Source: Siphonodentalium dalli
Lineage: Eukaryota; Mollusca; Scaphopoda; Gadilida; Siphonodentaliidae
Direction: 5' to 3'
DNA: 64,000 nucleotides
NCBI GenBank assembly: GCA_032622095.1
Contig: CP136068.1
Span: 119,027,509 to 119,091,508 of the forward strand
The notes under the pieces were generated by a model. That model was given only the letters and a program-made list of their open reading frames with translations, was not told the origin of the DNA and did not search any database. Both the position numbers and the translations under genes were made by a program. This document shows, one piece after another, positions 42,873 to 61,762 of this stretch (position 1 is the first letter of the stretch; each line of letters starts with the position of its first letter).

Positions 42873-44650
42873 TTGATTAATGCAGACCTTTCTAAGGTCG
42901 TATTATGCATCTAACATGCATCATTGTAATTCTGTCCATGATCCATCTAGAAGGGTACGGTAATGGTATGTGTTGTTTGGTACATGCATACAAACACATA
43001 AGCGGTGATGCTGTAATGTTATCACTTTTTTATTTCAGGATTCTTCTCAATGCAATCATGACACGGATCTATCGCAGAACACCTGCGCTCGCCGATACCA
43101 AGATTACACATCTGAGAGTTTGAGCAAGGCCCTTGAATGTATAAACAGTGGTGTGATGTCGCAGAGGGAGGCAGCTGCCTCCTTCCACATACCCAGGAGT
43201 ACACTAAAAAACAAACTCAGCAAGATGCACAGTAACAATGTCGGCAGGCCGGGTGTGTTAACCATAGATGAAGAAAAGACAGTTGTTGATCATATTATCG
43301 CTATGAACGATTACGGATTCCCGCTTGACAGCTATGATTTGAGGGTATGTGTGAAATACTTTCTGGACAGGAAAGGAACGACTAAGCCAAGATTTCAACA
43401 AAACTTTCCTGGTAAGGAATGGTGCTTTTCATTTCTAAGACGAAACAGATCCCTAACTAACAGATTCTCATCAAACATCAAGAAATAAAGAGCAGCCATA
43501 TCGCCAGAAACAATAAAAGGGTACATCAGCAATCTCGAAGTTGAGTTAGAAAATGTGGAACCTCATAATATCTACAATTACGATGAGACTAACCTGACTG
43601 ATGATCCCGGAAATAAGAAGATTATCACAAAAAGGGGCTGTACATGTAAATACCCCCAACACGTGCTTAATACCGGTACTTCGAAAGCCAGTATCTCCTT
43701 AATGTACTGTGGATCTACTGAAGGAGGGTTGCTACCACAACATGGACATACGGTGGACGTACCACCTGGGACGCGTTACAGTAGGTCAAAATCAGGTTGG
43801 TTTGATTGTACTTCATTCGAAGATTGGTTTTTCACCATCGCGCTCTACCACATATGAAGAAGAAGGCTGGAAAGAAAGTGATGCTTGGTGACAATTTATC
43901 ATCTGTACATTTTGGCGGTGTTACGACACTGTCAAAATGGCTAATGAGTGTGGGATATTACTTGGGGGGCCAAAAACATATTGGTATCATTTACATATAT
44001 ATATAGGGTGGGGGAGACATGCAAACACATCAAAACATTGGGTTTGCCGTAAGGTTACATTATTGTGAAATGCACGGACAGCAATTCACTCCCAATAATG
44101 TTTGTTAGGGATGACCTAAATATGTTGTTTATCCATTCATCCATCGGCATATATTTGCTGCTACCAGGTAGCCGATTGGACGCTTACCGCGTGACGGAGA
44201 AAATGTATACGTGCACGCTTCAATTCGACCATTTCTGTTTTAACCGCTTAGGGCTAGTCCAACAAGCTTAGGGCAACGGGAACACATGTGCTGAGAATGA
44301 CATAGCATTTGTTTGCCTTCCGCCAAATAACACCCACCTGACCCAGCCACTGGACATTGCTTTTTTCCGGGCCATGAAGATAAAATGGAGATTGTTATTG
44401 ACTGCATGCATGATTGGAAGAAGCGGGGAAAAGTTGGCAAGCGCTTTTACCAAGGATATGTTATTCCCATCACAGCTGACGAAACTGCATGATGCAATCT
44501 TTGATAATGTTTCCGAGAATATTAAGTCCGGTTTCAGGAAAGTTGGGATTTGGCCAATTTATAACAAGTGTAGCGGTCGCGTTGTAAAATATATAGAAGG
44601 CCGATTAATCAACAGCTCCAACGGAGCATGCTTCTTTGGTCCAGTGGTTA

Positions 44651-44742
44651 AGACGCCTTGTCTCGTCACCGAAGTTAAGCAATGTCGAACCCGGTTAGTA
44701 CTTGGAACGGTGACCGGTGGCCTGAGATTTCGGGTGCTGCTA
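44651..44742 (+). ncRNA. 5S rRNA-derived segment within the TRIM 5' LTR
   Basis: Reads like animal 5S rRNA from about residue 30 to the 3' end: TCTCGTC, GAAGTTAAGCAATGTCG, CGGTTAGTACTTGGA, GTGACCGG..GGCCTGAG, CGGGTGCTG. The positions of the internal pol III control regions (A box, intermediate element, C box) are covered, each with substitutions. The 5' third of 5S is missing or too diverged, so this is not a functional 5S rRNA gene. It could still act as a pol III promoter for the TRIM; that is inference. Confidence 0.85.
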
Positions 44743-44785
44743 ACTTTCGGTGCGACTCCCGCATTCCACCCTTCTCCCGTTACAC

Positions 44786-44803
44786 TGGGGGCTCGTCCAG
44801 TCA
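44786..44803 (+). promoter_or_regulatory. Primer-binding site resembling tRNA-Pro 3' end
   Basis: TGGGGGCTCGTCC matches the complement of the tRNA-Pro 3' end over 13 bases and then diverges; it lies one base after the LTR end, the expected spacing. Confidence 0.75.
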
Positions 44804-45419
44804 TCAGAGTCTGTGTCATGGTGCGACCGCTCTGAGAGAGGAACTTGGGTGAGGATCACTTGGTGGTGAACCTCAAAACGAGGAAGGGAGGAATGTAGCG
44901 GTGCTGCTAACTCCCGCATTCCACCCTTCTCCCGTTACACAAGAATGAAATTCTAGATCGACTTCCCGACTGAAAAGAAAGAAGTTAAACATCGAACCAG
45001 GAAAAAGTGTGTCCGATTTCATGATAATTTACATGCATATGATGAATTGACATCTTTAAACCTAGTGAAAATTTTATTACCGTCTCGTAAATTTATAGTG
45101 CGATATTGTCCCAACAGAAATACACCTCTGTCCTCTGCCAGGACTTGGGCTGTAACACGAAGAAGAAGAAGCGACACAAACTACCACATCACGTGATCGT
45201 GGAATGGGGGGCAGAACCGAAACCGAAACTAAAGTAATTAATGAGCACCTTCCTGCTTCCTGGTTACAAGTTTCAAGCGATCAAAAAAATTGCTGATTTA
45301 ATAACGTGAGTATACTTTCAGTTATGTTTAAATTTGTGCCATTTATAGTCTATAATGTGGATGATCTTAAGAGAAGTGTCAAACTGCAAAATTTGACGGA
45401 TTATGAAACATAAATTTCG

Positions 45420-60841: not shown

Positions 60842-61762
60842 GTTACAAGTGTTACAAATGTTACAAATGATTTAAAGTCCCAGTAGAAAACCGCAGCCTA
60901 TTTTATTTCTACCGTGTTCAGTGTAGCGACATGTTACAACGCGTTACAAGTGTTACATTATTTCTGAGATACCAAAGAGACCGCTCGTAGAGAGGTGTTA
61001 CAAGTGTTACAAATGATTTAAAGTCCCAGTAGAAAACCGCAGCCTTTTTATTTCTACCGTGTTCAGTGTAGCGACATGTTACAACACGTTACAAGTGTTA
61101 CATTATTTCTGAGATACCAAAGAGACCGCTCGTAGACAGGTGTTACAAGTGTTACAAATGATTTAAAGTCCCAGTAGAAAACCGCAGCCTATTTTATTTC
61201 TACCGTGTTCAGTGTAGCGACATGTTACCCAAGGTATGGATTTCCCATTCTCGTCGTTTACGCCTCAGAGGCCAAAATGTCGATTTTTTTACCCCCATCG
61301 GGCGATGTTTCTCTTCCCCAACGTTTCGCCTGTTGGGTTACAACGCGTTACAAGTGTTACATTATTTCTGAGATACCAAAGAGACCGCTCGTAGACGGGT
61401 GTTACAAATGTTACAAATGATTTAAAGTCCCAGTAGAAAACCGCAGCCTATTTTATTTCTACCGTGTTCAGTGTAGCGACATGTTACAACGCGTTACAAG
61501 CGTTACATTATTTCTGAGATACCAAAGAGACCGCTCATAGACAGGTGTTACAAGTGTTACAAATGTTACAAATGATTTAAAGTCCCAGTAGAAAACCGCA
61601 GCCTATTTTATTTCTACCGTGTTCAGTGTAGCGACATGTTACAACGCGTTACAAGTGTTACTTTATTTCTGAGATACCAAAGAGACCGCTCGTAGACGGG
61701 TGTTACAAGTGTTACAAATGTTACAAATGATTTAAAGTCCCAGTAGAAATTTTAAACCGCAG

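Follow-up and report, generated by a model that had tools for sequence, protein, structure and literature searches.

A miniature LTR retrotransposon family with 5S rRNA-derived sequence in its LTR in the scaphopod Siphonodentalium dalli

Introduction

Ajax is a family of two nemerteans, and its LTR carries the promoter part of the 5S rRNA gene (box A, IE, and box C). It is described as 421–434 bp long, with 5-bp target-site duplications and a tRNA-Leu primer binding site (PBS; Kojima, 2024; PMC10886601). The same paper describes Helenus, the tRNA-bearing LTR TRIMs of bivalves and other animals. Helenus has 4-bp duplications in animals, and in bivalves its PBS types include tRNA-Pro, solo LTRs occur, and a Gypsy helper was proposed (PMC10886601). 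Cassandra of plants is 565–860 bp long, and its transcription by pol III was reported (PMC10853983; PMC10886601). For biv-TRIM, found in bivalves (Sci Rep 2019; PMC6934838), no canonical PBS could be identified, and neither "5S rRNA" nor "polymerase III" appears in the main text of that paper.

The family described here pairs the cargo of Ajax with the duplication length of Helenus and a PBS type known from bivalve Helenus. Like Ajax, it is a short TRIM with only the 5S promoter part in its LTR, from which a pol III promoter is inferred; it is set apart from Ajax by description, being about 535 bp long with 4-bp duplications and a tRNA-Pro-like PBS (PMC10886601). It resembles Helenus in its 4-bp duplications, in tRNA-Pro being among the PBS types, and in its solo LTRs. 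However, box B of Helenus has GGTTC, whereas GGTGC is found here, the tRNA likeness is weak, and 5S is the clear component (PMC10886601). The likeness to Cassandra lies in 5S-derived LTR sequence that tracks the host 5S promoter within a non-autonomous LTR retrotransposon; in contrast, the present family is shorter and belongs to an animal, and its transcription by pol III is a prediction (PMC10853983; PMC10886601). With biv-TRIM it has in common that it is a TRIM in an invertebrate (PMC6934838).

The initial annotation of this DNA, aware of no 5S-bearing TRIM in bivalves, took the element for an independent animal counterpart of plant Cassandra; its claim to novelty is overtaken by Ajax (5S) and Helenus (tRNA), both already published (PMC10886601). 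No further 5S-bearing animal LTR element was found in the open-licence literature screened by title and abstract opening. The small-RNA-gene promoter sequence in the LTR by which TRIMp3 (TRIMs with a pol III promoter) is recognized is present (5S nt 34–92 or more). The family is probably a new lineage and not a new principle, and it is set apart from the published families by description.

Results

Anatomy of the Window Copy

The window is the whole stretch of DNA that was analysed (64,000 nucleotides). Every feature of the anatomy claimed initially, namely the ends, the 5′ LTR, the PBS-like site, the purine tract, and CAAG on both sides, was located in it. The features, all on the plus strand, are as follows.

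44565..44568, +, left target-site duplication CAAG
44569..44939, +, TRIM, window copy (371 bp: 5′ LTR, interior, and 3′ LTR remnant)
44569..44784, +, 5′ LTR, 216 bp, with ends TGTAGCGG...GTTACA
44569..44605, +, conserved U3 block; TATA-like stretch at about 44585–44596
44637..44647, +, A-box-like TGGTCCAGTGG, tRNA-type by comparison with the consensus, suggestive only and not kept in subfamily IV
44657..44747, +, segment derived from 5S rRNA, aligning with host 5S genes from nt 34 to about nt 121
44749..44759, +, B-box-like GGTGCGACTCC, differing from the consensus GGTTCGANTCC by one mismatch
44785..44893, +, internal region, 109 bp
44786..44798, +, PBS-like 13-mer TGGGGGCTCGTCC, putative primer binding site
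44880..44893, +, polypurine tract GAGGAAGGGAGGAA
44894..44939, +, 3′ LTR, 46 bp, internally deleted (made up of TGTAGCGG, TGCTGCTAACT, and the 27 bp that end the 5′ LTR)
44940..44943, +, right target-site duplication CAAG

The 13-mer TGGGGGCTCGTCC is presumably complementary to the 3′ end of tRNA-Pro. The 5S segment of the LTR is taken to contain the 5S A box, the IE, and the first half of the C box.

The two LTRs of the 371-bp element differ in length, the 5′ LTR having 216 bp and the 3′ LTR being only a 46-bp remnant. The TGCTGCTAACT in this remnant is the tail of the 5S-like part, so the 3′ LTR most likely once had 5S and then lost it. Because the promoter part is gone from its 3′ LTR, the window copy itself is likely dead as a template. 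3′ LTRs that lacked the promoter part and kept both ends were seen at 44894–44939 of the window and in L047 and L118, which suggests that internal deletion of one LTR is a recurrent event.

Broken DNA-transposon-like frames occupied 43009–44835 of the window, and the TRIM was situated at their 3′ part, beside and inside a frame. The DDE_1 match of the disrupted transposase frame was weak, at 20.7 bits for a cut-off of 22; upstream lay a Psq-type helix-turn-helix (32.9 bits; cut-off 20.4). The only frame of at least 150 aa entering the TRIM came from this disrupted transposase. Elsewhere in the window (60845–61749), repeats of 145 bp and of 155 bp formed two tandem arrays, which had 97% matches and were rich in GTTACAA words.

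The Family in the Host Genome

The initial annotation had proposed collecting full copies and solo LTRs with 44569–44784 as a query, and LTR pairs and single LTRs were recovered genome-wide. The search of the 2.23-Gb host genome gave 83 matches, from the 40 scored of 1,329 first-look candidates, and the first batch consisted of 40 stretches, two of them overlapping. Intact copies were about 535 bp long, with an LTR of 213 bp in most first-batch copies and an interior of 108–112 bp. The batch contained 31 LTR pairs, two of which overlap in the L048 tandem, and their LTR divergence was 0.0–4.7%, against 0 to 8.4% for the whole family. Target duplications of 4 bp flanked 24 of the 31 pairs, one pair had 5 bp, and six had none by exact match; the 4-bp sites were counted as 20 distinct ones because four locus pairs had common flanks and are probably segmental duplicates. 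The PBS 13-mer was exact in 34 of the 40 stretches, and a purine run of at least 9 preceded the LTR start in 37. L048 was a three-LTR tandem (LTR-interior-LTR-interior-LTR) with TAGT outside.

The LTR motif adjoining 5S was found at 148 places with at most 2 mismatches (reversed control 0). Of the 44 further loci chosen among the matches listed for it, 31 were treated as single LTRs, with 4-bp duplications in 23 and 5-bp duplications in two (L075 and L060). Eight of those 23 had one flank in common (L062, L063, L073, L091, L093, L096, L097, and L102), and a second common-flank group of single LTRs comprised L139, L145, L146, L148, L151, and L153; such common flanks indicate that the solo LTR seems to have moved about inside another dispersed repeat. 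A 22-base part of the U3 block occurred at 1,247 places with at most 2 mismatches (control 0). A 42-base pattern of the 5S core occurred at 1,643 places with at most 3 mismatches, 5S gene arrays counted in (reversed control 0). Among stretches fetched at exact core matches, leaving out C5:196489192 and the 5S gene arrays, 30 of 32 contained family LTRs; 4-bp duplications flanked six of eight pairs, all of subfamily IV, and nine of 18 single LTRs of several subfamilies. One exact-pattern scan of viral_contigs found no copy outside the host genome.

Some LTRs were split by intervening sequence, of ~0.9 kb in L079, ~2.7 kb in L105, and ~5.4 kb between L065 and L104. The breaks in L079 and L105 showed LTR overlaps of 10 and 5 positions, as later insertions would leave.

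With a length below 1000 bp, two LTRs, PBS, polypurine tract, 4-bp duplications, and no mobilisation protein, the family is a TRIM. A 5S-derived SINE (SINE3) or a 5S pseudogene without LTR nature would share the 5S segment and the short length. However, the paired LTRs, the PBS, the purine tract, the fixed 4-bp duplications, the solo LTRs, and the L048 tandem all speak against that origin, which we regard as highly improbable. 5S-like sequence without an LTR was met in only two of the 32 core-fetched stretches, and these two (L111 and L122) look like 5S genes or strays; the outcome that the initial annotation had named as pointing to a 5S-derived SINE was not seen.

5S as a Family Trait

The 5S core was present in 61 of 62 first-batch LTR rows, and 5S together with the LTR in all 44 further motif loci. 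This alignment of 62 LTRs was built without L014, L020, L028, L033, L035, L036, L042, and the third L048 LTR. Also outside it were two deleted 3′ LTRs (window and L047) and truncated LTRs from loci L037, L038, L040, and L045. A sample chosen by U3 only, that is, 20 consecutive exact places on one chromosome not fetched before, gave a 5S match in 17 of 20, or 16 of 20 at a stricter alignment score (L155 shortened). Of the misses, L140 and L157 are cut off shortly behind U3, and in L154 the 5S is interrupted. A full-length LTR lacking 5S was never met at the loci examined; the 5S-less LTRs (window 3′, L047, and L118) were internally deleted. The 5S segment is therefore a family trait, since related copies also have it. 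The same counts exclude a single-copy accident, the outcome named initially as a chance insertion, and it did not occur.

The window LTR aligned to a human 5S gene with a local score of 57, and three other copies aligned to the same gene with 72–73; the score of dinucleotide shuffles (2000 per LTR) never exceeded 32. This bears out the claim of about 90 bp of 5S-like sequence in the 5′ LTR. A search with RF00001 identified host 5S genes in 47 scored matches, all above the cut-off. In alignment to the host gene, four LTRs compared with ten host 5S genes matched from 5S nt 34 (to about nt 121 in the window LTR), and in the LTR of L046 the segment for nt 44–92 was identical to the host gene. By Rfam, 5S scored 18.3 bits in the window and 21.1–21.9 bits in L010 and L048, against a gathering score of 38; at that threshold the window part had no match, and with E up to 1 the 5S match was missing in L017, L039, and L046 of the five loci submitted. 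The score is low probably because 5S is present only in part.

Two other candidates were set aside. An Rfam match to mir-2954 (21.8 bits against 96) was taken as chance, and a decayed 5′ half of 5S was not supported for the LTR part upstream of 5S (shuffle fractions 0.12–0.52 for nt 1–43 and 0.10–0.20 for nt 1–33).

The host 5S genes themselves (L049–L058) were of at least three types, ~193-bp arrays, ~1.36-kb arrays, and scattered copies, with places at C2:200.18–200.35 Mb, C9:133.5–133.6 Mb, and C6:231.75–231.85 Mb.

Subfamilies and Their Conserved Blocks

Subfamily IV was seen via the core-pattern loci and is about 80% like subfamily I. Its LTR divergence was 3.8–8.4% in seven usable pairs (that of L107 was left out), two of its six pairs with 4-bp duplications had the same flanks, and its purine tract was interrupted and ended in GGGGGAGTAG. 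Figures for I and IV refer to majority bases, and the subsets chosen were 12 5′ LTRs (I), 12 loci (IV), five loci (III), and three loci (II), with the subfamily III locus L070 absent from the alignment.

Between I and IV, 5S nt 44–92 agreed at 50/50 positions, a value that may look too intact because most IV rows came from the exact 5S-core search, which favours intact cores; with four IV LTRs free of that selection, two of them with the same flanks (L129 and L130), it was 49/50. The U3 block agreed at 34/34 and LTR positions 165–190 at 26/26, and the remaining parts were less alike: 27/51 at LTR positions 35–85, 5/9 at 5S nt 34–43, 14/20 at positions 145–164, and 14/23 at positions 191–213. 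Subfamily III matched I at 50/50 over 5S nt 44–92 and at 6/20 over positions 145–164, and subfamily II matched I at 49/50 over 5S nt 44–92. In I and II the C box was followed by an additional 3 bases, the C box of II also had a further base inserted, and in III the C box diverged past GACC. The LTR of L149 was a mosaic with the frame and ends of subfamily IV and an I-like middle. Recombination between subfamilies thus seems to occur, and shared blocks may therefore partly reflect exchange and not selection.

These patterns could also come from an LTR of the ordinary pol II type whose U3 is TATA-like. Its 5S would then be a hitch-hiker that became fixed in the founder and has persisted through common descent and recombination. 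The 34-bp U3 block is kept as well as the 5S core, the L149 mosaic is at hand, and the C box is changed in I–III, all of which would suit such an LTR. However, positions 35–85 and 191–213 changed freely while 5S nt 44–92 stayed unchanged between I and IV, and the part retained is the one that holds the pol III control regions. We consider the hitch-hiker explanation unlikely. The pattern over 5S nt 44–92 supports a working promoter core, short of proof.

tRNA-Like Boxes around the 5S Core

The sequences flanking 5S resemble tRNA-type A and B boxes, a likeness that is suggestive only. They might form a composite pol III promoter in which A and B boxes derived from a tRNA, as in Helenus, surround the 5S core. 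The A-box-like TGGTCCAGTGG was exact in 58 of 62 rows and the B-box-like GGTGCGACTCC was present in 45 of 61. The pre-5S sequence of subfamilies I–III was like tRNA 5′ halves, with uncorrected shuffle fractions of 0.002–0.014 for the five best of 12 human tRNAs. The PBS type and the 4-bp duplication also match bivalve Helenus (PMC10886601). Nevertheless, no tRNA was found by ARAGORN in the window or by Rfam in the window part and five loci, the tRNA likeness of subfamily IV was not significant (0.08–0.29), and the B box is mismatched at its core T and degraded in III. The family was kept out of Helenus because the likeness is weak, there is none in IV, and neither program found a tRNA. A composite promoter of this kind is possible, and we rate it as rather doubtful.

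Discussion

The reading we prefer is that of a non-coding miniature LTR family whose RNA is probably made by pol III, with the 5S core as a promoter lying within the 5′ LTR. 5S-type pol III factors would recognize the A box, IE, and C box of the 5S part, and transcription would start near LTR position 50–56, where 5S nt 1 would map (position 53, about 44624 in the window). The TATA-like U3 block lies ~30 bp upstream of the predicted start; the AT-rich stretches of the host 5S genes are nearer, at roughly -22 to -13, and do not coincide with the TATA-like stretch of the LTR. Pol III would not stop early, because TTTT on the sense strand was absent from eight of nine copies checked, and the RNA would read through into the 3′ LTR. 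Reverse transcription would then be primed by tRNA-Pro. An autonomous element, probably a Gypsy like the helper proposed for animal Helenus, would provide in trans the proteins for reverse transcription and integration.

Several points count against pol III transcription. In the same eight copies without TTTT, the RNA would have no evident stop signal. The likeness to 5S covers only part of the gene and stays below the Rfam gathering score, and 5S nt 34–43 are poorly kept. The TATA-like U3 block would suit pol II equally.

A bolder proposal is that LTR retrotransposons have here captured a 5S promoter independently for the third time, and that the capture took the form of a hybrid of TATA-like U3, tRNA-type A box, host-matched 5S A/IE/C core, and B box. 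If the tRNA-type A box is genuine, the start that it predicts would be close to the one set by 5S. We think this hybrid improbable; if it were true, an LTR lineage would have traded pol II for pol III promoters of two kinds, stacked on each other.

As the duplication length and the primer are unlike those of Ajax, the capture of 5S by LTR elements would be recurrent and not a matter of two oddities. The subfamilies, with a common 5S nt 44–92 and largely diverged flanks, form a natural experiment on which 5S promoter bases are indispensable to an LTR, and also on whether such elements track the 5S of their host, as has been reported of Cassandra.
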